Part shown: one piece after another, positions 50,258 to 64,000 of the stretch
Layout of the letters: each line of letters starts with the position of its first letter
Numbering within the stretch: the stretch's first letter is position 1
Origin: Dyadobacter fermentans
Lineage (GTDB): Bacteria > Bacteroidota > Bacteroidia > Cytophagales > Spirosomataceae
Assembly (NCBI RefSeq): GCF_019924045.1
Contig: NZ_JAHXBN010000013.1
Location: 434,001 to 498,000 of the forward strand
Direction: 5' to 3'
DNA length: 64,000 bases
Made by a program: the position numbers and the translations under genes
Notes under the pieces: generated by a model
Database searches by the model: none
The model's input: the letters and a program-made list of their open reading frames with translations, nothing else
Told to the model about the DNA's origin: nothing

Positions 50258-51943
50258 TCACTGATTTTGAAACAAATTTTCGGGGAATTGCTCAAAATTG
50301 AAAATAGAAGCTATATTTGCACCCCGATAAGGCTTCAAAGCCAGCGACTGCTCCCGTAGTTCAATGGATAGAATAATGGTTTCCGGTACCATCGATAGGG
50401 GTTCGAATCCCTTCGGGAGCACCCTAAGGGACAAGTCGTTTTTAAACGCACTTGTCCCTTTTTTTTGCGTTCGTAACTTGCTCGTTATCTGATAAATAAG
50501 GTCGATCCCTTCGTTCAGCCGAGCGGTTCGATGTTCGATTCCGTCAAACGTCAAATTTTCCGGGAAGATCGAACCAATTATCTGCCTTTTTTCTTCTATC
50601 GTACCTGATTTATAGAGCTTTGAGAGGTGTTCGAGTCCCGTGAGGATATGCTTTAAATATGCGCCTATTTCTGCATGATCATCGGAAAAGCTGTTGAGCT
50701 TAATTTCAAGCTCTTCGATTCGTTTTGTACAGTGCGATTTTACATGCTCAAAGTCTTCCGTTCCCAACAGCCCATCGACCAATTTAATCCGGGCATTTCG
50801 CAATCTCTCGTTTATCTTGTCGAGTTCTTCGACTAAATTTCGACGTTCCATTTCCCGAATTTTGGTCTGTTCTTTGTAGGTGGCAAGCACCAGATCAGAA
50901 TAAATTTTCATCCGGCCGGGACGCGGTACAAGCATGTTGAGTTGCCTTTCGAACTTTTCATTTACGTCGTCCGCTTTAAATCGCACACCACACGACGAAG
51001 AACAGTGATAATAGTAGTAGTAAGTGCTTCTTCCTTTCGATGCGCTTCCAGACAGCATTCTATCGCATTTGGTACAACGTAAGAACCCCCGGAGAGGAAG
51101 GTTGTCATCTGAAACGATTTTTGGCTTTTGATATGGATTCCGTTTTCGTCCGGAAATCATATCCTGCACTAAATTGAACGTTGAGGGCGACACGATTGGC
51201 TCGTGCAATCCCTTCACACGCTGTGCCTTTTCCCCTTCGAATTCGGGAATAAATATTTGTCCGCAATAGACCGGATTCCGAATTGCAAGCCAAAAGTTGT
51301 TTTTACTGCACTTTAGTCCTTTTCTGACCGCTTGCTTCCATACCTGTTCCGTGTTAAACCTACCTAGGGCAAGTTCTTCAAACACCCATTTCATTATCTG
51401 TGCCTTATTTGTGTCAGGCTCAATTATTTTTTTTCCGTCAAATGAGCGGGTATTACGATATCCTATCGGGGCGGTGGCAACCCAGCGTCCTTCTTTCTTG
51501 GCGCGCCGCATGCCGTGGAAGACATTTAACGCGCGACGGTCATTCTCAACTTCGGGCGCAGCTAAATAGAAAGCCAGCATGATCTTGTTTTCTGGAATTC
51601 GGATATCAAGTGGTTGTTCGATAGCCTGTGGTTCAATACCTGCTTTGCGAAGGATATTAATCATTTGGTAGGCATCACCAGCGTTGCGACTGAACCGGTC
51701 CCATTTTGTAAATAGGATCTGATCAATCTGAAGTCGTTTCTTCTCCCTTAATCGGGCAAGTAGCATTTGCCACTTTGGCCGCAAGAATGTTTTTGCCGAA
51801 TGGTCCTCGAGGATCACTTCGGCAACTTCCACGGAATTGTGCTTACACCAATTTCGCAACCTTTCCTCTTGATCTCGCTGAGAATAGCCTTTTTCTGCCT
51901 GTTCATCAGTGCTTACCCTGACATATAGAATAGCTCTGGACAT
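50258..51943 (-). CDS. Large serine recombinase, C-terminus antisense to tRNA-Arg
   Basis: The 561-residue integrase has catalytic Ser11 in ILYVRVSTDEQ and the resolvase core with DQILFTKWDRFSRN. The recombinase domain and zinc ribbon (CTKCDRMLSG ... HCSSSCG) follow, then a coiled coil (RRNLVEELDKINERLRNAR). Residues after about 507 are encoded antisense to the tRNA and its terminator (VLPKGFEPLSMVPETIIL), so the natural tail is set by the integration site. It would catalyse integration and excision of the element on its right. It is more AT-rich than its left neighbours. Confidence 0.88.
   Translation of the reverse strand: MSRAILYVRVSTDEQAEKGYSQRDQEERLRNWCKHNSVEVAEVILEDHSAKTFLRPKWQMLLARLREKKRLQIDQILFTKWDRFSRNAGDAYQMINILRKAGIEPQAIEQPLDIRIPENKIMLAFYLAAPEVENDRRALNVFHGMRRAKKEGRWVATAPIGYRNTRSFDGKKIIEPDTNKAQIMKWVFEELALGRFNTEQVWKQAVRKGLKCSKNNFWLAIRNPVYCGQIFIPEFEGEKAQRVKGLHEPIVSPSTFNLVQDMISGRKRNPYQKPKIVSDDNLPLRGFLRCTKCDRMLSGSASKGRSTYYYYYHCSSSCGVRFKADDVNEKFERQLNMLVPRPGRMKIYSDLVLATYKEQTKIREMERRNLVEELDKINERLRNARIKLVDGLLGTEDFEHVKSHCTKRIEELEIKLNSFSDDHAEIGAYLKHILTGLEHLSKLYKSGTIEEKRQIIGSIFPENLTFDGIEHRTARLNEGIDLIYQITSKLRTQKKGTSAFKNDLSLRVLPKGFEPLSMVPETIILSIELREQSLALKPYRGANIASIFNFEQFPENLFQNQ
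50288..50319 (+). promoter_or_regulatory. Promoter of tRNA-Arg
   Basis: TTG at 50288-50290 and TATATTTG at 50312-50319 with a 21-bp gap form a strong Bacteroidota promoter 30 bp before the tRNA. Confidence 0.7.
50350..50421 (+). tRNA. tRNA-Arg (anticodon CCG)
   Basis: The acceptor stem GCTCCCG/CGGGAGC is perfect. The anticodon arm ATGGT-TTCCGGT-ACCAT puts CCG at positions 34-36, reading CGG. The T arm AGGGG-TTCGAAT-CCCTT is intact. Discriminator A is at 50421 and CCA is not encoded. Confidence 0.95.
50426..50466 (+). terminator. Terminator after tRNA-Arg
   Basis: AAGGGACAAGT at 50426-50436 pairs perfectly with ACTTGTCCCTT at 50450-50460, followed by six more Ts. Confidence 0.85.
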
Positions 51944-54370: not shown

Positions 54371-54644
54371 GATCAGGCTACTGCTGTTCTTGTGGGTAGT
54401 GACTTTCTTTGTAGGAGATGCCTTAACCCGATTGATAATTTTTCGTAATTACATGTAGTCAAAAATTTAACCGGTGGTTAAGCAGTAATCTTAGCAAGTT
54501 TTGGTTCGACCTGTCTGTGGGCTTGTATGGCCTGTTTAAGTTCGGTATACCTAAGATTGCTCACGTTAACTGTATTTTAAGTTTGAGCTGGCTATTCGCT
54601 ACTCGAAGGTTTGTCGTACCTCGTATCAATGTTTATTAAATAAA

Positions 54645-54658
54645 ACAGACTTGTTTGT
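54645..54658. promoter_or_regulatory. TetR-type operator, site 1
   Basis: ACAGACTTGTTTGT differs by one base from the other three sites and overlaps the -33 region of the monooxygenase promoter. Confidence 0.75.
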
Positions 54659-54684
54659 TTTTATTGTTGATTTGTTTAACTTTC
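54654..54684 (+). promoter_or_regulatory. Promoter of the flavin monooxygenase gene
   Basis: TTTG at 54654-54657, a 19-bp gap and TAACTTTC (one mismatch) at 54677-54684. ATG 54728 lies 43 bp downstream. Confidence 0.6.
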
Positions 54685-54727
54685 TCTCAGATCACTGCTT
54701 TAATGGATCCACACTAAACCTTGTGTC

Positions 54728-56068
54728 ATGGAAAACAAACTTATTTTAACCGGGTTTTTCTTCAACCCCCAGGGGGATAACCGCATGTCATGGCGGTATC
54801 CTTCCGCGCCAGCACATGAGATTTTTACACTCGAATATTACCAGAAGCTTGTACTGGCCGCCGAGCGAGCTGGCCTGGATGCTGTTTTTTTGGCCGACCA
54901 TGTTGGGATATGGGACAGCTACCCCAGTAACATCGCCAGTTACGCCAATGCACGGCTGGAACCGATAACCTTGTTGAGCGCGCTGGCATCGGTAACACAG
55001 CGGATTGGCTTGTTCTCGACAATTTCAGCGTCATACAGCGAGCCGTACAATGTCGCGCGCATGCTTGCTTCGCTGGACCATATCAGTAAAGGAAGGGCGG
55101 GGTGGAATGTGGTTACATCCGGGATGAACGAGGAGGCCATGAACTACGGTAGAGATGCCCGCATCGAGCATAGCTCACGCTACAAACGGGCCGAAGAGTA
55201 TGTAACCCTTGTGAAAGCATTGTGGGATAGCTGGGAGGACGACGCGCTCAAAATCAACAAGCAGTCGGGTGAATTTGCAGATCCTAGCAAAGTCCACAGG
55301 GTTGACCATCATGGTGAGTTTTTCAAGGTAAGAGGGCCACTGAATGTGCCCAGACCCCTTCAAGGGCATCCAATCATTATTCAGGCGGGTTCTTCCAGTG
55401 ACGGAAGGGACCTTGCCGCAAAGCACGCAGATCTTAATTTTACGCTTCTCCGCTCGATTGAGGAAGGACAGCAATACCGGGCCGACTTCAACGACCGGCT
55501 TGCCAATTTTGGTAGAAAGCCCACGTCACTGAAAATCTTGCCTGGCATATTACCGATCGTCGCAGGCTCTGCCGCTGAGCTTGAAGAAAAGAAGCGGTTG
55601 CTGGAAAGCCTGATACCCGACCAGGTGGCCATTGATTTGGTATCCAGTTGGGTCGGCATGGATTTGTCCGGCCTGGACCTGGATGCCCCCTTACCGGAAT
55701 TACCGGATGAATCGACTTTCGATGGGCAACGTACCAACCTGGTCAAGGTCAAGCAGTACCAAAGCGAAGGCTTGACGCTTCGTCAAATCTCGACGATTGT
55801 TGCCAGCGCTGGAAGCGCGCCCATTGTAGGGGGGACACCCAAGGAGATAGCCGATGAGCTGGAAGCGTGGTTCAGGGCCGGGGCTGCTGATGGTTTTGCC
55901 CTGATGTTTCCCACTATCCCCGAAGACTGGGACCGGTTTCTTGAAGAAGTGGTGCCTGAGCTCAAAAGGCGAGGTTTGATTGCTGGTGACGATGGTAGCG
56001 GTACGATCCGTGACAGGCTGCATTTGCCTAAACCTGAAAACACTTTTTCCAAGCAAAGCGCAGAATAA
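54728..56068 (+). CDS. LLM class flavin-dependent monooxygenase (NtaA/SnaA/DszA type)
   Basis: The 446-residue TIM-barrel enzyme uses FMNH2 supplied by a separate reductase. Typical segments are YYQKLVLAAERAGLDAVFLADH, LSALASVTQRIGLFSTISASYSEPYNVAR, ISKGRAGWNVVTS and HPIIIQAGSSSDGRDLAAKHAD. This subgroup oxidises compounds such as nitrilotriacetate, EDTA or organosulfur molecules. No flavin reductase gene is adjacent. The TetR-type operator at its promoter links it to the genes that follow. It may attack a xenobiotic or sulfur compound sensed by the TetR proteins. Confidence 0.9.
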   Translation: MENKLILTGFFFNPQGDNRMSWRYPSAPAHEIFTLEYYQKLVLAAERAGLDAVFLADHVGIWDSYPSNIASYANARLEPITLLSALASVTQRIGLFSTISASYSEPYNVARMLASLDHISKGRAGWNVVTSGMNEEAMNYGRDARIEHSSRYKRAEEYVTLVKALWDSWEDDALKINKQSGEFADPSKVHRVDHHGEFFKVRGPLNVPRPLQGHPIIIQAGSSSDGRDLAAKHADLNFTLLRSIEEGQQYRADFNDRLANFGRKPTSLKILPGILPIVAGSAAELEEKKRLLESLIPDQVAIDLVSSWVGMDLSGLDLDAPLPELPDESTFDGQRTNLVKVKQYQSEGLTLRQISTIVASAGSAPIVGGTPKEIADELEAWFRAGAADGFALMFPTIPEDWDRFLEEVVPELKRRGLIAGDDGSGTIRDRLHLPKPENTFSKQSAE

Positions 56069-56084
56069 TGCTTTAATTTATCGT

Positions 56085-56098
56085 ACAGACTTGTCTGT
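56085..56098. promoter_or_regulatory. TetR-type operator, site 2
   Basis: ACAGACTTGTCTGT (perfect 6-bp arms) covers the -33 TTG of the first TetR gene. Confidence 0.8.
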
Positions 56099-56120
56099 TT
56101 GATTCGTTTGTTTAACTTTG
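56091..56120 (+). promoter_or_regulatory. Promoter of the first TetR gene
   Basis: TTG at 56091-56093, a 19-bp gap and a perfect TAACTTTG at 56113-56120. The ATG at 56125 follows after only four bases. Confidence 0.75.
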
Positions 56121-56124
56121 CCTT

Positions 56125-56679
56125 ATGCGCAAGGATAGAAAAAATGCAGTCAGGCAAGCAGTCGTAGAGACGGCTTCGCGGTTGTTTTACAAGCAAGGGT
56201 ACAGTAACACCGGCATCAACCAGATCATTGAGGAATCCGGGGTAGTTAAATCATCCTTGTACACGACTTTCCGCTCGAAAGAGGACATTCTGATGGCATA
56301 CCTGGAAACTTCCGGTGCCGCTACCGACCAGGCGTTGAAAGATGCAGCAGACCGCTTTGAAGACCCTGTCAAAAGAGCACTCGCCATCTTTGACTATCTG
56401 GTCGAGTTGGTGCAACAAAAGGAATATTACGGCTGTAACTTTTTGAATATCATCTCAGAGATCCCCAAGGAGGACGAACGCGTCCGGGCGCAGATTAAAA
56501 AGCAAAAAAATGGCGTCCGCAGGCTATTCTATCAGATCCTGGAACCGGTGGGCAAAGAGGATCTCGCCGATGAAATGTACACGCTCTTTGATGGGGCGTT
56601 GATTGCCAATAAGGTCCACGATGAAGTATGGCCCGTACTGAGCGCCCGAAGAATGGCCGACAAGCTATTGAATAACTGA
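56125..56679 (+). CDS. TetR family regulator 1
   Basis: The 184-residue repressor-type protein has HTH TGINQIIEESGVVKSSLYTTFRSKEDIL at about residues 30-57 and a ligand-binding helical domain with GCNFLNIISEIPKED. It is a clear paralogue of the next gene: recognition helix SSLYTTFRSKED against SSLYQHFKSKEE, and the matching GCNFLNI/GCHFLNI segment. The ATG lies four bases after the -7 box, so the transcript appears leaderless; no other Met occurs until residue 51. The operator in its own promoter indicates autoregulation. Confidence 0.9.
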   Translation: MRKDRKNAVRQAVVETASRLFYKQGYSNTGINQIIEESGVVKSSLYTTFRSKEDILMAYLETSGAATDQALKDAADRFEDPVKRALAIFDYLVELVQQKEYYGCNFLNIISEIPKEDERVRAQIKKQKNGVRRLFYQILEPVGKEDLADEMYTLFDGALIANKVHDEVWPVLSARRMADKLLNN

Positions 56680-56722
56680 TCGTTAGCGGATTGGAAATTG
56701 TGCACATTAAAATAAGATTAAA

Positions 56723-56752
56723 ATTTAAAAACAGACTTGTCTGTTTTTAAAT
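56723..56752. promoter_or_regulatory. TetR-type operator, site 3 (14-bp perfect arms)
   Basis: The core ACAGAC-TT-GTCTGT at 56731-56744 is extended to perfect 14-bp arms, ATTTAAAAACAGAC and its complement, around a TT centre. It overlaps the -33 region of the second TetR promoter. Confidence 0.85.
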
Positions 56753-56768
56753 AAATGCTCTATCTTTG
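56737..56768 (+). promoter_or_regulatory. Promoter of the second TetR gene
   Basis: TTG at 56737-56739, a 21-bp gap and TATCTTTG at 56761-56768. The ATG at 56773 follows after four bases. Confidence 0.75.
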
Positions 56769-56772
56769 AACC

Positions 56773-57312
56773 ATGAGAAACATGACTGTCAGGGAATCAA
56801 TCCTGAAAACAGCGGCCAGGCTATTTTATCAGCAAGGTTATAGCAACACGGGAATAAACCAGATCATCGAGCAGGCAGGTATCGCCAAATCATCTCTGTA
56901 CCAACATTTTAAATCGAAAGAGGAGTTGCTAATGGCTTATTTGCAATTAACCGGGACCGAGACTTTGGCGCGTTTGACTCAGGCGTCTGAGCATGGCGCA
57001 TCACCCAAGCAAAAGGTGCTGGCGATTTTCGACTATCTGGCGGCTTCGGTGACCAACGAAAGTTTTCATGGCTGCCATTTTCTCAACATCGTATATGAAA
57101 TGCCCCACGATGCTTTGCGGGTGCGGGAGCAGGTCAAATTGCAAAAAGAGGGCGTGCGGAATCTATTTCATGATATCCTTCAGCCATTGGAAAACGAAGC
57201 ATTAGCCAATGAAATTTACACCCTGTTCGAGGGTGCGCTCATTGGCCATAAGGTGCACAATGATCCCTGGCCGGTCTTGGCCGCAAGGGCAGTTGTGGAA
57301 AAATTGCTTTGA
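56773..57312 (+). CDS. TetR family regulator 2
   Basis: The 179-residue protein is a tandem paralogue of the gene at 56125. The HTH reads TGINQIIEQAGIAKSSLYQHFKSKEELL. The C-terminal domain has FHGCHFLNIVYEMPHD. Operator site 3 is in its promoter and the ATG follows the -7 box by four bases. With two repressors of similar recognition helix, the same operator may be shared or contested. It ends just before operator site 4. Confidence 0.9.
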   Translation: MRNMTVRESILKTAARLFYQQGYSNTGINQIIEQAGIAKSSLYQHFKSKEELLMAYLQLTGTETLARLTQASEHGASPKQKVLAIFDYLAASVTNESFHGCHFLNIVYEMPHDALRVREQVKLQKEGVRNLFHDILQPLENEALANEIYTLFEGALIGHKVHNDPWPVLAARAVVEKLL

Positions 57313-57326
57313 TTTAATTTTTAAAA

Positions 57327-57340
57327 ACAGACTTGTCTGT
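57327..57340. promoter_or_regulatory. TetR-type operator, site 4
   Basis: ACAGACTTGTCTGT, flanked left by TTTTTAAAA, stands upstream of the alpha/beta hydrolase gene. The associated -7 box is unclear; TCTATTTG at 57345-57352 is the nearest candidate. Confidence 0.8.
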
Positions 57341-57374
57341 ATTGTCTATTTGTTAACCGTAAACTTTACTGCAC

Positions 57375-58244
57375 ATGAAAACGAACCGGGTACACTACCA
57401 AAAATTGCAGGTCAATGGCCTGAACGTATTCTATCGCGAAGCAGGGCCTGTGGACGGCCCGGTGGTGCTTCTCTTGCATGGCTACCCGACGTCTTCGCAT
57501 ATGTACCGAAATTTGATACCGATCTTGGCAGAAAAATACCACGTATTCGCTCCCGATTTGATTGGTTTTGGCAATTCGGATGCACCGCATTACAAATCGT
57601 TCGATTACACCTTTGATAACCTGACCAAATATGTCCAAGGGTTTATCGACCAACTCGGATTAGAACGTTTTGTGGTGCAGGTATTTGACTACGGCGCGCC
57701 GGTCGGGTTCCGGCTGGCAGTTGCCAACCCGACAAAAATAACCGGCATTATTACCCAAAACGGGAATGCTTACGTGGAAGGGTTAAGCGATGGCTGGAAC
57801 CCGATCCAGAAGTATTGGGCAGACCCCAGCGAGCAGAACCGCAATAACCTTCGGGTGCTTTCGACTGCTGAATCTACGCAATGGCAGTACTTTACCGGCG
57901 TGAGTGACAAGAGCCTGATTGCGCCGGAATCTTACCTGCTCGACCAGTTTTTCCTCGATCGGTCCGAGAATGAGGAAATCCAGCTTGATCTTTTCAAGGA
58001 TTACGCGAGCAATGTAGCATTGTACCCAACTTTCCACCAGTATTTCAGAGACTCTCAGGTGCCATTGCTTGCCGTTTGGGGCGACAAAGACCCATTCTTT
58101 TTGCCAGCCGGGGCAGAAGCATTCAGAAAAGACTTGCCAGATGCGATCGTTAAGCTCTACGATACAGGCCATTTTGCACTGGAAACCCATGTCGATGAGA
58201 TTGGAGAAGCAATTTTGACGTTTCTGGACACGCTGCCGCGTTAA
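57375..58244 (+). CDS. Alpha/beta hydrolase with Asp nucleophile (haloalkane dehalogenase/epoxide hydrolase-like)
   Basis: The 289-residue cytoplasmic enzyme has the oxyanion loop HGYPTSSHMYRN, where HGYP resembles HGxP of dehalogenases. The nucleophile is Asp105 in VVQVFDYGAPVGFRLA, the acid lies near VWGDKDPFF, and the base His is in DTGHFALETH. An Asp nucleophile points to haloalkane dehalogenase, epoxide hydrolase or fluoroacetate dehalogenase-type chemistry. It heads a same-strand gene row that includes egtB and egtD, under the TetR-type operator. Confidence 0.88.
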   Translation: MKTNRVHYQKLQVNGLNVFYREAGPVDGPVVLLLHGYPTSSHMYRNLIPILAEKYHVFAPDLIGFGNSDAPHYKSFDYTFDNLTKYVQGFIDQLGLERFVVQVFDYGAPVGFRLAVANPTKITGIITQNGNAYVEGLSDGWNPIQKYWADPSEQNRNNLRVLSTAESTQWQYFTGVSDKSLIAPESYLLDQFFLDRSENEEIQLDLFKDYASNVALYPTFHQYFRDSQVPLLAVWGDKDPFFLPAGAEAFRKDLPDAIVKLYDTGHFALETHVDEIGEAILTFLDTLPR

Positions 58245-58296
58245 GAATCGCAGGCGCGCAGGTTCGAATTGGTTAAACATATCAATTGTGATCATC

Positions 58297-59481
58297 ATGC
58301 AAACAAGGACGCAAGTTCAGGTACTGCGCGAGCGGTACGAACAGGTGCGCCGGCTCACCGTGGATATCTGCCAGGGTTTGGAGACCGAGGATTACGTAGT
58401 GCAACCCACAGCAGATGTAAGCCCACCCAAATGGCACCTGGGCCACACCACATGGTTTTTCGAAACATTTGTGTTGAAGCCCCACTGCCCAGACTATCAT
58501 CCGTTCAGCGAGGACTTTGATTACGTCTTTAACAGCTACTATGAAACGATCGGACGTAGGGTAGTCCGGACCGACAGGGGCAATCTGAGCAGACCGACGG
58601 TACAGGACGTATTTCGGTATCGCCATTATGTGGATGAAAAACTATACCAACTAATAGAATTGGCAAGCGCTGATTTGTTAACCGAGATGTCACCAATCAT
58701 AGAGCTTGGAATAAACCATGAACAGCAACATCAGGAGCTGCTCTGGACGGACATAAAGTACATTCTTGGTAATAATCCCCTGTTTCCCCGCTTTTTAAAT
58801 TCGCAGCACCCTGATACCACTGACAGGTATTCAGATCAAGGCTTTTTATCGATCAATTCCGGGAACTATGAGATAGGATATGCTGGGCCGGTTTTCTCAT
58901 GGGATAATGAACATAACCGGCACACGGTGTATCTGCAGCAGTTCGAAATATGCACAACGCTGGTTACCAACAAGGAGTATCTTCAATTCATTGATTCTGG
59001 CGGATATACCGATTTCCGGCATTGGCATTCCGACGGTTGGGCCTGGGTCAAAACGCATCAAATCCAGGCGCCGTTATACTGGTATTATTGGGAAGGCGAA
59101 TGGCTCAACTATACCTTCGATGGACTACGGGCCATCGATCTGCAAGCGCATGTTTGCCACGTTAGTTACTACGAGGCCTACGCCTATGCCAATTGGATGG
59201 GACTAAGGCTTCCTACAGAATTTGAATGGGAGGTGGCGGCGCCCAAAATGCAATGGGGCCAGCGTTGGGAATGGACCGAAAGCGCTTATCTACCTTACCC
59301 TGGCTATAAGAGGCCTGCCGGCGCCCTTGGCGAATATAATGGCAAGTTCATGGTGAACCAGCAGGTACTACGCGGAGCTTCCACCTACACTTCACCAGGC
59401 CACAGCCGGATTACTTACCGAAATTTCTTTCAGCCACAGGCCCGCTGGCAATTTTCCGGGATTAGAACAGTACGCCCCTAA
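58297..59481 (+). CDS. egtB: Ergothioneine biosynthesis protein EgtB
   Basis: The protein has 394 residues from ATG 58297 (a GTG lies at 58288). The DinB-like domain carries the iron ligands: His47 or His50 in WHLGHTTWF and the HX3HXE motif at residues 141-147 (HEQQHQE). The FGE-sulfatase domain follows, closing with WEWTESAYLPYPGYKR, EYNGKFMVNQQVLRGAST and ARWQFSGIRTVRP. EgtB oxidatively joins a thiol donor (gamma-glutamylcysteine or cysteine) to hercynine using O2. EgtD, which makes hercynine, is the next gene. No egtC or egtE is nearby. Confidence 0.93.
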   Translation: MQTRTQVQVLRERYEQVRRLTVDICQGLETEDYVVQPTADVSPPKWHLGHTTWFFETFVLKPHCPDYHPFSEDFDYVFNSYYETIGRRVVRTDRGNLSRPTVQDVFRYRHYVDEKLYQLIELASADLLTEMSPIIELGINHEQQHQELLWTDIKYILGNNPLFPRFLNSQHPDTTDRYSDQGFLSINSGNYEIGYAGPVFSWDNEHNRHTVYLQQFEICTTLVTNKEYLQFIDSGGYTDFRHWHSDGWAWVKTHQIQAPLYWYYWEGEWLNYTFDGLRAIDLQAHVCHVSYYEAYAYANWMGLRLPTEFEWEVAAPKMQWGQRWEWTESAYLPYPGYKRPAGALGEYNGKFMVNQQVLRGASTYTSPGHSRITYRNFFQPQARWQFSGIRTVRP

Positions 59482-59501
59482 TTTGTTAACTGGAAGCGTA
59501 T

Positions 59502-60575
59502 ATGTATGGACGTTATGACACCAAGCACTCAACAACCATTATGACTATGTTCATTGCAGACCAGTTCGTTGGTAGTCTCGAAGTTGCCCAGACTCCTGAC
59601 AAGACTACGACGCCAGATAACTTGAATTTTTACGTTGATGTCCTCAGGGGACTTAGCGCCCCACAGAAGCGTATCAGCTCAAAATATTTCTATGATGCCC
59701 AGGGCGACCGCATATTTCAGCAGATCATGGCTTGTGAGGAATACTATCCGTTCAAATGCGAGTTGGAAATATTTCAAAACCATTCAGCCGAGCTGGCCCG
59801 GCAGTTGATGGAGGGAGGCAGTGATACCGATTTGATCGAACTGGGCGCAGGGGACGGGCAAAAATCGGTTTACCTTTTGCAGGCGCTTAGCCGGTTAAAG
59901 GCATGCTACACTTATGTCCCGATTGATATTTCCGGCAGTATGGTTGCATACCTGACTAGCCATTTAGGTAGTATGGTTCCTGATATTAACGTAAGCGGTT
60001 TGGCGGGAGAATACCTGCCGATGTTGCAGCAAGCAGCCAGGCGGTCGGCCAACAGGAAGGCGGTGATGATGCTGGGATCAAACCTGGGTAATATGCTGCC
60101 GGTAGATGCCCTGAAATTCTGCGAAAGCATACGTGCATTGTTGAATGCTGGCGACCGGTTTATTGTTGGAATAGACCTTAAAAAATCTCCGCAGCAGGTG
60201 CTGGCAGCTTACAACGACAAACAGGGCATAACCCGGAGCTTCAATTTAAACCTGCTTACGCGGCTTAACCGGGAGTTGAATGCGGATTTTAACCTGGGCC
60301 AGTTCGAACATTTTCCCACCTATGACCCTGAATCGGGCAGTTGTAAGAGCTATTTGATCAGCTTGCAGGAGCAGGTGGTCAGGTTTTGTTTACAGGACCG
60401 GACCGATTGTATCTATTTCCAGAAGTACGAGACGATATTTACAGAAATTTCACAAAAGTATAGCCTAGCCGAACTTGGAAAGATGGCCAAAATGGCCGGT
60501 TTTGAAGTGATTCATAACTATTACGACGCCAATGGCTGGTTTGTAGATATGGTTTGGGAGGCTAAACAAGCATAA
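59502..60575 (+). CDS. egtD: L-histidine N-alpha-methyltransferase EgtD
   Basis: The 357-residue enzyme trimethylates histidine to hercynine with S-adenosylmethionine. The family opening KYFYDAQGDRIFQQI (residues 61 on) is followed by CEEYYPFKCE and the SAM loop LIELGAGDGQK (111-120). MLGSNLGNM and LLAGDRFIVGIDLKK-like (FIVGIDLKKSP) segments follow. Internal ATGs at 59541 and 59547 are alternatives. It lies 20 bp after egtB. Confidence 0.93.
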   Translation: MYGRYDTKHSTTIMTMFIADQFVGSLEVAQTPDKTTTPDNLNFYVDVLRGLSAPQKRISSKYFYDAQGDRIFQQIMACEEYYPFKCELEIFQNHSAELARQLMEGGSDTDLIELGAGDGQKSVYLLQALSRLKACYTYVPIDISGSMVAYLTSHLGSMVPDINVSGLAGEYLPMLQQAARRSANRKAVMMLGSNLGNMLPVDALKFCESIRALLNAGDRFIVGIDLKKSPQQVLAAYNDKQGITRSFNLNLLTRLNRELNADFNLGQFEHFPTYDPESGSCKSYLISLQEQVVRFCLQDRTDCIYFQKYETIFTEISQKYSLAELGKMAKMAGFEVIHNYYDANGWFVDMVWEAKQA

Positions 60576-60593
60576 GGATAAAGGTGACCGAAG

Positions 60594-61253
60594 ATGGAAC
60601 AACAATCCAAAACAAGAACAGAAAATGCTTCTGCCGACAGGGTGTTTGCATTTTCTGATGGCGTTTTCGCGATCATTATCACGATTATGGTACTGGAATT
60701 AAAAAAGCCCGCCGGGGATGACTTTCATGCCGTGCTTTCGTTATGGCCGACTTGGCTGAGCTATGCGACCAGCTATCTTTTCATTTCTATCGTATGGCTT
60801 AACCATCACTATTTGTTAAGGAACCTGTCAGCGGTTAGTCTACGACTGTTATGGGCAAATTTCGGGCACTTGTTTTCGGTGTCTCTCATTCCTTTCCTGA
60901 CGGATTGGGTAGCTGAAAGCAAACTCGCACCCGTTCCTGTATCATTGTACGCTTTCGTATTCTTATTGGTCAATGTCAGCTATTTAATCCTGGTTTGGGA
61001 GAGCCAGGATGAGCTTGCTACAAAAGAGCACAAAGCACTGGCAAGCTGGATGATTCGGTTACGGTCTACTGCGACCATTGCTGTTTTCCTGGTATCGACA
61101 GTGGTTTCACTGTGGGTGCCCATAATTGGTTTTGCAATGGTATGCGGATGCCTGATTCTATACACCCGGCCGGAAATTAAAGCTTCCGGTCAGCATCTGG
61201 AGAGGTTCGGGAAAATTCAGAAATTATTAAAACATCAAACAGACAAACATTAA
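60594..61253 (+). CDS. TMEM175 family membrane protein (putative ion channel)
   Basis: The 219-residue protein has about six membrane helices. The pore-type signature RVFAFSDGVFAIIITIMVLEL near the N-terminus is diagnostic of TMEM175/DUF1211 proteins, which form potassium-permeable channels. SWMIRLRSTATIAVFLVST lies in the second half. It is 18 bp after egtD and 6 bp before the SDR gene, so it is in the same operon. Confidence 0.9.
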   Translation: MEQQSKTRTENASADRVFAFSDGVFAIIITIMVLELKKPAGDDFHAVLSLWPTWLSYATSYLFISIVWLNHHYLLRNLSAVSLRLLWANFGHLFSVSLIPFLTDWVAESKLAPVPVSLYAFVFLLVNVSYLILVWESQDELATKEHKALASWMIRLRSTATIAVFLVSTVVSLWVPIIGFAMVCGCLILYTRPEIKASGQHLERFGKIQKLLKHQTDKH

Positions 61254-61259
61254 ATAGCA

Positions 61260-62033
61260 ATGGTAGAGAAACGCGTAGCAGTTGTAACTGGTGCCAGTAG
61301 TGGCATTGGTGCCGCCACAGCCTTGCGGCTGGCCGACGATTTTGGGGGCATTGTGCTCGTTGCCAGCAGAGCAGATGAATTGCAAAGGACCGCCGAAAGG
61401 GTCAGGGCAGCCGGTGCTGAGCCGTTAATTGTCTGCGCGGACCTAATGGAAGCGGACGCGGCCCAAAGAATTATCCATGAAACAACCGCCCGTTTTGGCA
61501 GGATCGATGCGCTAATCAACGTGGCGGGCGCTGTTCCCCAGGTCGACGTGTTTGAAATGAGCGACGCGCAATGGATTGCCAGTATGGAAGTTAAATTTCA
61601 CAGCGCCAGAAGGCTGACTATACAAGCCTGGCCGCACCTGACCAGCAGCAGAGGCTCCGTCATTTTTATGTCTGGTACGGCAGCAGAAAACCCAAAGCCT
61701 GCGGCAGCGGCCATTGCAGCGACGAATGCTGCGGTCGATGCGCTTTCGAAGGCATTTGCAGAACATGGCTTGGCGGACGGAGTCCGGGTTAACACAGTAC
61801 TACCAGGTCCGATCATGACCGAAAGGCGCACGGTTTTTCTCGAAAAGATGGCAACCTCTCAGAAGATCACTGTTGATCAGGCAGCCCAAAGTTTCTTGAG
61901 CGAATCAAGGATCGCCCGGTTTGGGCAGCCTGGTGAAGTAGCAGAGTTGATCGCGTTCCTGGTTTCCCCTAAAGCCAACTTTATTACCGGCACCGCCATC
62001 AGGATAGATGGCGGAGAAGTTAAAGGAATCTAA
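61260..62033 (+). CDS. SDR family protein lacking the catalytic Tyr and Lys
   Basis: The 257-residue Rossmann protein has the nucleotide motif TGASSGIG (residues 10-17) and NVAG in place of NNAG. Ser138 (IFMSGTAA) is retained. The usual YxxxK appears as IAATN, that is Ile152 and Asn156, so the proton-relay pair is missing. It may bind NAD(P) without classic reduction, or use another mechanism. Otherwise its length and RIDGGEVKG end are normal. It shares its operon with egtBD. Confidence 0.85.
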   Translation: MVEKRVAVVTGASSGIGAATALRLADDFGGIVLVASRADELQRTAERVRAAGAEPLIVCADLMEADAAQRIIHETTARFGRIDALINVAGAVPQVDVFEMSDAQWIASMEVKFHSARRLTIQAWPHLTSSRGSVIFMSGTAAENPKPAAAAIAATNAAVDALSKAFAEHGLADGVRVNTVLPGPIMTERRTVFLEKMATSQKITVDQAAQSFLSESRIARFGQPGEVAELIAFLVSPKANFITGTAIRIDGGEVKGI

Positions 62034-62069
62034 AACATTACAAATCAATTTAACCTTCAACACCAAGTT

Positions 62070-62603
62070 ATGAACGCTTTTTCAGTACCCGCCAGGCAGC
62101 AAGTATCTGCGGCCAATCAAACCCTATTTGACAACCTGACCAAATCTGTCGGGAGAGTCCCTAATTTGTTTTCTGTATTCGCCTACTCGGACAACGCACT
62201 GGCAAATTATTTGACACTTAACAGCGGCAAATCGTCACTCCGTGCAAGAGAACGGGAGGTGATAAACCTTGTTGTCAGCCAGGTGAACGAATGTCTGTAT
62301 TGTTTAAGCGCCCATACCGCAATTAGCAAAATACAAGGCTTCACCGATGAACAGATCATTCAAATACGGAAAGCGCAAGTAGACTTCGACCCGAAGCTGG
62401 ATGCACTGGCCAAGCTTGTCAAAAGTATCGCTGAAAACAAGGGCCACGCCGAGCCCGAACTAATAGATAACTTTTACGCGTCAGGCTATAACCAGGGCAA
62501 TTTGATGGACGTGGTTGTGGGGGTAGGGGACAAGATCATAACCAACTATGTTTTTGCATTGACACAAGTTCCCATAGACTTTCCCGTCGCGCAGCCATTA
62601 TAA
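62070..62603 (+). CDS. Carboxymuconolactone decarboxylase/AhpD-like protein
   Basis: The 177-residue all-helical protein has the redox pair Cys75 and Cys78 in NECLYCLSAH with His82, the AhpD-type peroxidase relay. Arg/Glu residues in REREVINLVVS match the family. It is probably a peroxide or alkyl hydroperoxide-related disulfide reductase. In an operon with ergothioneine genes it fits an antioxidant role. Confidence 0.88.
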   Translation: MNAFSVPARQQVSAANQTLFDNLTKSVGRVPNLFSVFAYSDNALANYLTLNSGKSSLRAREREVINLVVSQVNECLYCLSAHTAISKIQGFTDEQIIQIRKAQVDFDPKLDALAKLVKSIAENKGHAEPELIDNFYASGYNQGNLMDVVVGVGDKIITNYVFALTQVPIDFPVAQPL

Positions 62604-62747
62604 GCTGACCATACCTGGCAGGAATCAGGTATATTCCCAACTTCGGGAAAAGCGGCCTTGATCCCGGGAACTATCGCCATTCTTTGGCAGCGGCATTCGC
62701 CGGACCTTTGACCTATCAAAATATCGAACACGAAAACAAGAAAGACA

Positions 62748-63278
62748 ATGAAAAATCTTGCAATTTCCACCGAAGATCAAAACGCAGCATTGATATCTGG
62801 ACCATTATTAGTGAAACTGGCTGCGAAAATCGAACAACTAGACCTGCCTTTCCGGGTAATGCTTACTGCTATGACAGTAATGCTTTTGTGGGCGGGCGCC
62901 TATAAAATGACCGATCCTGGCTCGGAGGGTATTGAAGTACTGGTCAACAACAGTCCGCTGATTAGCTGGCATTTTCAGCTTTTTGGCGTACATACGGGAG
63001 GAGACCTGATCGGTTTGACCGAAATCGTAGCGGCTTTGCTCATGCTGACAGGGCTTTTCCGTCCGCAGGCCGGCATTGTGGGCGGCGGCATTGCCGTAAT
63101 GATGTTCTTTGTGACCAGCACGATGCTCATCACCACGCCGGACGCTATTACACACGTGAATGGCGTAGGTTATATGAGTTTCCTAGGGCTCTTCTTATAC
63201 AAAGACCTGCTGGCACTGGGCGTTTCCCTTTACCTGATCACCCGGTTCGGTCACAGGGCCGCAATGCAAAAGGGGTGA
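62748..63278 (+). CDS. DUF417 (YkgB/RclC-like) membrane protein
   Basis: The 176-residue protein has about four membrane helices (VMLTAMTVMLLWAGAYKM, GLTEIVAALLMLTGLF, GIVGGGIAVMMFFVTSTML). GAYKMTDPGSEGIEVLVNNSPL is the DUF417 signature; RclC of the reactive chlorine response is a member. No catalytic residue is known. The 144-bp gap after the AhpD-like gene has no terminator that I can find, so it may be in the same unit. Confidence 0.82.
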   Translation: MKNLAISTEDQNAALISGPLLVKLAAKIEQLDLPFRVMLTAMTVMLLWAGAYKMTDPGSEGIEVLVNNSPLISWHFQLFGVHTGGDLIGLTEIVAALLMLTGLFRPQAGIVGGGIAVMMFFVTSTMLITTPDAITHVNGVGYMSFLGLFLYKDLLALGVSLYLITRFGHRAAMQKG

Positions 63279-63323
63279 AAGCCTTCAACCGGCCTATAAT
63301 ACGGCCAGATGTAACCAGCAAAG

Positions 63324-63361
63324 ACCATGCCGACACGGGTATTCCGGGCCGGCATGGTTTG
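63324..63361 (+). terminator. Weak terminator after the DUF417 gene
   Basis: ACCATGCCG at 63324-63332 pairs with CGGCATGGT at 63350-63358, followed by a short T-run. Confidence 0.5.
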
Positions 63362-63391
63362 TTCATATATTCCGTTTGCTACATTCAAGAT

Positions 63392-63399
63392 TATATTTG
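63392..63399 (+). promoter_or_regulatory. -7 box of the right-edge AraC gene
   Basis: A perfect TATATTTG stands 15 bp before ATG 63415. No good -33 TTG lies at the usual spacing. Confidence 0.5.
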
Positions 63400-63414
63400 T
63401 TAAACCTTCTGATA

Positions 63415-64000
63415 CATGTTGCACCAACTGACCCATCCGCATACCAGTGCTCAATTCAGGCTCGTATATGACCAAAGCGATTTCGACCGCATCTTCTACG
63501 GCCGCGACCGGAAAGATAAGCTATTGACCATTGCCTGGAACCGGGGCGTCGCACAGAAAGCTATCATCGATAATGTGGTTTACGATTTCCCGGCTAACTC
63601 CGTGCTATCCCTGATGGTCAATGAGACTTTTCACTTTGAGAGACCTTCGGACATTGTCGCCTGGCAATTCAACAGGGACTTTTACTGCATCGTCAACCAC
63701 GACAAGGAAGTGAGCTGTGTGGGTTTTTTATTCTATGGGTCGGGGCAGCGGATGTTTATGGCTATCGACGAGAAGCATGGCAGAAAGCTGGACCTGCTGT
63801 TACAGGTTTTCAAGGATGAATTTGAAATGCAGGACCCGATCCAGGGCGAAATGATGCTGGCGCTGCTCAAACGTTTGATCATCATTATCACCCGACTAGC
63901 CAGGGATCAGTACATTTCCGAGCAGGACCTGCCGTCAGACAAGCTGGACATCGTCCGGAAATACAATTTACTGGTGGAGAACCATTACCGGCAGCAGCAC
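63415..64000 (+). CDS. AraC-type regulator, N-terminal part (runs off the window)
   Basis: The frame is open from ATG 63415 to the right edge, 195 codons. The protein begins MLHQLTHPHTSAQFRLVYDQ; its middle (YDFPANSVLSLMVNETFHFE, IVAWQFNRDFYCIVNHDKEV) reads as a cupin-like sensor domain of a Bacteroidota AraC family member. The HTH would lie beyond the edge, so the class is inferred. Confidence 0.65.

Follow-up and report, generated by a model that had tools for sequence, protein, structure and literature searches.

Bacterial circuits in which a TetR-family repressor governs the response to an electrophile have been described before. The epoxide-inducible CifR-cif operon of Pseudomonas, with similar circuits in Acinetobacter and Burkholderia, couples a TetR to an Asp-nucleophile enzyme of the alpha/beta-hydrolase fold, and the NemR-nemA-gloA system of E. 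coli has a repressor of the same TetR fold. Ergothioneine synthesis by a type II EgtB is likewise known, from the Chloracidobacterium-type pathway, and the field mostly regards ergothioneine as an antioxidant made constitutively. Here, we describe a locus of Dyadobacter fermentans in which a core ergothioneine pair, egtB and egtD (egtBD), stands behind near-identical TetR operators in an apparently mobile block, and the usual ergothioneine set stays elsewhere in the genome. The window, i.e., the whole stretch of DNA that was analysed, comprises 64,000 nt (positions 434001-498000 of contig C35) of a source genome of 8,001,404 bases, and the 10.3-kb block, as delimited by blastn, spans window position 54628 to the position equivalent to 64961, beyond the window end. 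We judge the chances to be even that this block is a self-contained, horizontally moving, electrophile-inducible detoxification regulon that recruited ergothioneine synthesis.

Operators, repressors and gene order

54628..64000, no strand: in-window part of the apparently mobile block, from blastn alignments to genomes G037 and G044; continues to 64961
54644..54659, + strand: operator 1, AACAGACTTGTTTGTT, before the luciferase-like monooxygenase (LLM) gene, with a TTTG -33 element inside
54728..56068, + strand: NtaA/DmoA-family FMN-dependent LLM (TIGR03860, 501.9 bits against a cut-off of 279.7)
56084..56099, + strand: operator 2, TACAGACTTGTCTGTT, before tetR1, overlapping a -33 element
56125..56679, + strand: TetR1 (PF00440), sole cysteine Cys104; Lys163
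56730..56745, + strand: operator 3, AACAGACTTGTCTGTT, before tetR2, overlapping a -33 element
56773..57312, + strand: TetR2 (PF00440), sole cysteine Cys101; Lys160; AlphaFold2 pLDDT 87.7
57326..57341, + strand: operator 4, AACAGACTTGTCTGTA, before the hydrolase operon
57375..58244, + strand: alpha/beta-hydrolase (PF00561) with Asp nucleophile (FDYG at 104)
58288..59481, + strand: EgtB, type II (CthEgtB-like) sulfoxide synthase, GTG start (TIGR03440, 516.9 bits against a cut-off of 360)
59502..60575, + strand: EgtD, histidine N-alpha-methyltransferase (PF10017, Methyltransf_33, 314.3 bits, cut-off 23)
60594..61253, + strand: TMEM175-type channel (PF06736, 89.7 bits, cut-off 25)
61260..62033, + strand: SDR oxidoreductase (PF13561)
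62070..62603, + strand: CMD/AhpD-like protein with CxxC (PF02627; TIGR00778, 47.9 bits, cut-off 27.8)
62748..63278, + strand: DUF417 membrane protein (PF04224, 80.1 bits)
63322..63360, + strand: hairpin followed by UUUGUU, likely operon terminator (-22.9 kcal/mol, z -3.60, 2/200 shuffles as good)
63416..64000, + strand: AraC-family regulator inside the block, named by likeness and by eye; the gene ends at 64267, past the window
After the AraC gene, ending at 64958: second CMD-like protein inside the block, likewise named by likeness and by eye

Four near-identical palindromes carry the case for common control. At 0-1 mismatch, AACAGACTTGTCTGTT has four sites in the window (54644, 56084, 56730 and 57326). 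Relaxed to 3 mismatches, the search gives nine matches, namely the four operators read on both strands (eight) plus one elsewhere; shuffles of the window averaged 0.39 matches, and nine were reached in 0/100. The operator proposed by the sequence-only reading, an earlier reading of this DNA, is thus real. The four sites are also the only 0-1-mismatch matches of AACAGACNNGTCTGTW in the whole genome, where matches at up to 3 mismatches show no enrichment (369 forward, 420 for the reversed control). In the family (222 genomes) there are 10 exact copies of the 16-mer, six of them in the three genomes that carry this gene module and four as single sites elsewhere.

The promoter consensus of the phylum, TTTG-N19-21-TAnnTTTG, differs from the sigma-70 type. 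Allowing up to 1 mismatch, five matches to it lie on the + strand of 54501-63420 (100 mononucleotide shuffles: mean 0.79, maximum 3), and three of these have their -33 element inside an operator; a sigma-70-type scan gives no excess (11 found, 13.0 expected). Hairpins in a position corresponding to that of 63322-63360 follow DUF417 in both relatives compared (loci L041 and L042), and this hairpin is likely to be the terminator of the hydrolase-to-DUF417 operon. The four operators, the tight packing of the genes and the end hairpin all support a single TetR-controlled unit that includes egtBD.

Ten genes occupy 54728-63278 on the + strand, in the order LLM, tetR1, tetR2, alpha/beta-hydrolase, egtB, egtD, TMEM175, SDR, CMD/AhpD-like and DUF417, with the AraC and second CMD genes following. 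Profile searches assign all ten to the families that the sequence-only reading had named, and its gaps of 6 to 144 bp agree with those measured from hydrolase to DUF417 (43, 20, 18, 6, 36 and 144 bp, in order); an egtBD pair elsewhere in the genome, the end hairpin and the extent of the shared block are additions to it. The last of these gaps, between CMD and DUF417 (62604-62747), can fold and keeps its length in L041 and L042; the scan found no promoter match in it. The best PDB match of the LLM is YtnJ/MoxC. For the hydrolase, 'dehalogenase-like' holds as far as the Asp nucleophile, which is kept in the alignment of FDYG to HDWG of DhaA, but no further: HGYP/FDYG against HGNP/HDWG puts Tyr at both halide-binding positions (presumably N41 and W107 in DhaA), and the NCBIfam haloalkane dehalogenase cut-offs are all missed (131.8/241, 115.2/265 and 91.5/466 bits). 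Full-length relatives of this hydrolase (63-68%) occur in six family genomes, with other module genes present only as weak SDR or AraC matches, so the hydrolase alone is no predictor of the module.

TetR1 and TetR2 are paralogues (54% identity). Cys104/Cys101 and Lys163/Lys160 align to C106 and K175 of NemR, and this Cys and Lys of the NemR bleach switch are kept in 120/120 TetR homologues among the matches listed. The AlphaFold2 model of TetR2 points to 3g7r, YxaF, NemR and CifR as structural neighbours. A search of 390 genomes of the order found relatives of TetR2 (40-48% identity) in 10, not counting its own genome; G037 and G044 gave no row, and a class-wide search (395 genomes, E <= 1e-50) returned none besides its own genome. 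ACAGAC-NN-GTCTGT lies upstream of 8/10 order-level tetRs with no more than 1 mismatch; a variant stands in L087, and the 200 bases examined in L085 contain none. Within these ten loci (11-20 kb), a hydrolase is nearby in five and an EgtB or EgtD match in none. In the genus of genome G803, which we infer to be Mucilaginibacter, TetR2 relatives occur in 10/100 genomes, and the exact palindrome is present at 10 of their 12 loci, which cover all 16 matches. Twelve EgtD loci taken regardless of TetR lack the palindrome, even with 1 mismatch. Because the palindrome accompanies TetR2 relatives and none of these control loci, the shared operator reads as the footprint of a TetR subfamily.

The second egtBD pair and the spread of the block

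The module EgtB is closest to CthEgtB (PDB 8qf6, E 4.6e-120) and carries the motif HEQQHQE; its H53, Y84, Y85, R94 and R97 match H62, Y93, Y94, R103 and R106 of that enzyme. We take H53 to be among the Fe-ligand histidines, the role of each individual histidine being our assumption. In EgtD, N197, Y237, E315 and S317 stand at the histidine-pocket positions of mycobacterial EgtD (4pim), where they presumably bind histidine. The Tyr-Tyr pair and the two Arg are functional residues of CthEgtB according to the accessible portions of two papers (PMC10903977, PMC9103826), the first of which reports a preference for cysteine as donor and the second the use of both sulfur donors. Since CthEgtB uses cysteine, EgtA and EgtC may be unneeded for the module pathway, at least by analogy and as far as those portions go. 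No egtC or egtE lies inside the cluster, as the sequence-only reading had it. Genome-wide, nothing passes the EgtE profile TIGR04343 (best 89.3 of 400 bits), which gives sub-cut-off matches in 14/14 controls; EgtC was searched in the cluster only. It is possible that ergothioneine is finished by genes elsewhere.

Contig C119 holds another egtBD pair, whose neighbours are an FAD oxidoreductase, an ATPase and an EgtU-like fusion of permease and binding protein. The fusion is a 574-aa open reading frame (ORF) with ProW-like and OsmF-like parts, next to the ProV-like ATPase, all below NCBIfam cut-offs. By its domain layout the transporter appears to be EgtU-type, and ergothioneine would be its cargo by likeness to EgtU, described in the available text of PMC9732360 as the ergothioneine importer of Streptococcus. 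Module and C119 pairs share 57% (EgtB) and 37% (EgtD) identity. With a separate egtBD beside an EgtU-type transporter, the module egtBD becomes a regulated second copy, and the picture of the cluster given by the sequence-only reading has to be corrected in this respect. The five-gene primary locus is present in 9/9 Dyadobacter loci sampled from 48 genomes of the genus, some matches coming in two pieces, and 46/48 of these genomes have at least one EgtD.

The FAD oxidoreductase of this primary locus (L010:1827-3317, on C119) resembles RclA, the HOSCN reductase MerA and mercuric reductase, each at a score under the cut-off. In 9/9 Dyadobacter primary loci (L049-L057), and in 10/12 other EgtD loci (L090-L101), it immediately precedes the EgtU-type transporter and egtBD; it is a candidate partner of ergothioneine metabolism. 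Some other Dyadobacter genomes have a different accessory egtD/egtB cluster (L043-L045, L048), which includes a Crp-type regulator and NTF2-like proteins, both named by eye, as well as a PIG3-like quinone oxidoreductase; among the accessory copies, the EgtD match of G004 (L048) is in two pieces and the EgtB match of G023 (L044) is short and in pieces.

The block itself is shared with two other genomes. Blastn gives a single 10,346-bp alignment at 91% to Dyadobacter sp. CY261 (G037), covering window 54628-64961, and 8,902 bp at 85% to Dyadobacter sp. SG02 (G044), covering 56074-64958; outside the block, no similarity to either genome was found in the flanking DNA compared. The primary egt locus shows the opposite order of identities (79.0% to G037, 84.9% to G044), which means that the similarity to G037 is higher for the module than for that chromosomal locus. 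Differing flanks in the three carriers, together with identities discordant with the chromosomal locus, indicate that the block moves horizontally. EgtD of at least 86% identity occurs in 3/222 family genomes, its own included, and none of the 51 plasmid records matched by EgtD reaches 60% identity. A tRNA-Arg island was considered and rejected as a vehicle. It has a serine recombinase ORF (50258-51943), its 3' end overlapping an opposite-strand tRNA-Arg (50349-50424); no 18-mer of the tRNA recurs on its strand in the window or in the next 16 kb downstream, and the start of the shared block is 2.7 kb away, so we do not tie the module to this island. Base composition gave no strong signal of transfer (GC 49.0% in the module, 51.6% in 1-50000).

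Beyond Dyadobacter, the gene set is recognizable and variable. The 12 Mucilaginibacter-like TetR loci, some of which end at contig ends, contain the hydrolase in nine, SDR in six, TMEM175, DUF417 and CMD in three each, EgtD in two, and LLM and EgtB in one each. Locus L102 reads TetR1-TetR2-two hydrolases-TMEM175-SDR-AraC-DUF417-CMD and has no egtBD, as is also true of L103, L106 and L107. Locus L104 reads LLM-flavin reductase-hydrolase-TetR2-two hydrolases-EgtB-MFS-EgtD-TMEM175-SDR; L105 has EgtD and an MFS-like ORF, EgtB being absent. In the loci with both EgtB and EgtD, namely L104 and the three Dyadobacter copies, the pair always lies between the hydrolase and TMEM175/SDR, which makes the slot common to two Bacteroidota orders; the module is conserved, with egtBD as an optional cassette. 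The unit proposed by the sequence-only reading is therefore loosened by the four neighbourhoods without egtBD, but upheld by the shared slot.

In the EgtD tree (74 rows), 12 database proteins fall together with L104, L105 and the three module copies of Dyadobacter in a 17-row group (SH-aLRT 94), apart from Sphingobacteriaceae-like EgtDs linked to EgtU. Sixteen database rows were used: all eight that had been preselected for presumed linkage to a TetR2 homologue, judged by equal length of their longest contig and one of the homologue's, fall in the group, as do four of the eight others. The EgtB tree also groups L104 with the module copies (94). As separate observations on these loci, the hydrolase paralogue beside tetR2 (L104:10619-11476, L105:10498-11364) has Gly at the Asp-nucleophile position (IGYGG/LGYGG) and so could be a pseudoenzyme or work by a different mechanism; the EgtD at L105:13745-14755, in a TetR-operator locus without EgtB, possibly yields hercynine, not ergothioneine.

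Candidate functions of the block

If the block is an electrophile-inducible regulon, both TetRs would keep the four transcripts repressed. The single conserved cysteine (Cys101/Cys104) would be modified by a reactive electrophile resembling an epoxide, quinone or aldehyde, or possibly by hypochlorite, with Lys160/Lys163 taking the place of the NemR switch lysine, and the modified repressors would release DNA. The hydrolase, SDR and monooxygenase would then destroy the electrophile, and the channel and membrane proteins would adjust ion or membrane state. EgtD and type II EgtB would meanwhile raise hercynylcysteine sulfoxide, which a putative C-S lyase would convert to ergothioneine, the thiol trapping remaining electrophile.

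A number of observations weigh against this scheme. The TetR2 model is matched equally well by YxaF, SCO4454 and NemR (Z within 1). All five more distant TetRs whose alignments were examined share the cysteine, and it may therefore be structural; the lysine position is Gln in 7/10 order-level relatives. Five other NemR cysteines are absent from TetR1 and TetR2, the electrophile cysteines 21 and 116 being replaced by Phe and Pro. Operator 4, the one preceding egtBD, has no promoter match within 1 mismatch, and a simple terminator scan finds no excess (8 found, 11.8 expected) and misses the + strand hairpin at 63322-63360. EgtD falls under the NCBIfam TIGR03438 cut-off (275.1 against 290.9 bits). 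No C-S lyase gene is linked to the block, and ergothioneine is its presumed product. Most module relatives lack egtBD (egtD in 2/12 loci, egtB in 1/12), so the pair is not required for core function, and the EgtD and EgtB groupings both stand under the 95 mark, with long-branch warnings.

Among the alternatives, the one that survives best is a catabolic operon for one xenobiotic or natural product, in which the monooxygenase would open the compound, hydrolase and SDR would process it, MFS would move it, and the TetRs would bind it non-covalently, with ergothioneine or hercynine as co-substrate or side protection. Among NtaA/DmoA LLM relatives with known structures are a hexachlorobenzene oxidative dehalogenase and monooxygenases acting on EDTA and on dimethyl sulfide; in L104, genes for a flavin reductase and a further hydrolase come after the LLM; and YxaF-type TetRs fit the TetR2 model. 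Rhodococcus, according to the available text of PMC8557817, raises EgtABCD during dibenzothiophene desulfurization. However, the LLM was not found in 20 kb around the G044 module and is present in one of the 12 Mucilaginibacter-like loci, which implies that the core is independent of it. Gene content is highly variable for a fixed pathway, and the invariance of the Cys and Lys in the listed repressor homologues also speaks against this reading. We regard this explanation as unlikely, if worth keeping in view.

A peroxide/chlorine antioxidant operon built on AhpD, RclC and ergothioneine, as the sequence-only reading had suggested, is distinctly improbable. The CMD protein does pass the AhpD core-domain cut-off, the last gene does belong to the DUF417 family, and the Cys-Lys pair is common to NemR, which senses hypochlorous acid. 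But RclC is a poor description of the DUF417 protein (51.1 bits on NF040476, cut-off 275), no catalase or peroxiredoxin is among the ten scanned cluster proteins, and the hydrolase, SDR and monooxygenase are left unexplained. Least probable of all is that egtBD is a passenger with no functional tie to the regulon: modules without the pair, egtD alone in L105 and the other egtBD of the genome would fit, but the pair is intact in a shared slot in three Dyadobacter genomes and L104, the EgtB and EgtD trees agree, and active-site residues are in place.

Returning to the inducible regulon, a second egtBD under its own repressor switch suggests a protective thiol made on demand when a reactive chemical arrives. 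The bacterial need for ergothioneine thereby becomes directly testable, as the inducer of the TetRs would reveal its role, and for work on thiol stress in Bacteroidota the block supplies a defined operator together with a candidate Cys-Lys sensor. More speculatively, and with doubt prevailing, the block may represent a transferable repressor-switched ergothioneine system of the phylum, in which NemR/CifR-like TetR pairs sense electrophiles or hypohalous acids through a conserved Cys-Lys thiol switch and induce hydrolase, TMEM175 and a second egtBD in one transcript; if so, ergothioneine would be an inducible detoxification thiol in Bacteroidota, beyond its constitutive antioxidant role.

Comparison with known systems

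To CifR-cif, the block is alike in having a TetR repressor and an Asp-nucleophile enzyme of the alpha/beta-hydrolase fold, and in the predicted fold of TetR2; its hydrolase is an epoxide hydrolase only putatively, and release by an electrophile would follow by analogy. The MFS gene of that system is matched in the Mucilaginibacter-like version of the module. Unlike CifR-cif, the block has two TetRs, four operators, the ergothioneine genes, channel, LLM, SDR, CMD and DUF417. With NemR-nemA-gloA it has in common the Cys106 and Lys175 positions. AGAC/GTCT half-sites stand upstream of nemR too, in what we take to be NemR's own site, but with a spacing of 6 bases there and 2 in the block operator. 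In contrast to that system, the block TetRs lack the further NemR cysteines, and neither a nemA nor a gloA gene (old yellow enzyme, glyoxalase) is among the ten scanned cluster proteins.

The mycobacterial mel2 locus (luciferase-like melF, epoxide hydrolase melH) also combines LLM-type and hydrolase genes in a redox-protection locus, the likeness being one of gene types. To our knowledge, mel2 has neither egt genes nor a TetR pair. Loss of melH lowers ergothioneine in mycobacteria, as reported in the accessible part of PMC11036813. With the Chloracidobacterium-type pathway, the block shares the EgtB family, Fe ligand, Tyr-Tyr pair and two Arg; it differs in that its egtBD is an apparently mobile second copy behind TetR operators, with no EgtE identified. 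The sequence-only reading knew the combination from no described system, and the accessible part of the open-licence PMC literature on ergothioneine likewise holds no description that we found of egtBD behind a TetR operator. Each half is known by itself, the TetR electrophile circuits as well as egtBD; what appears new here is that egtBD is joined to TetR operators.

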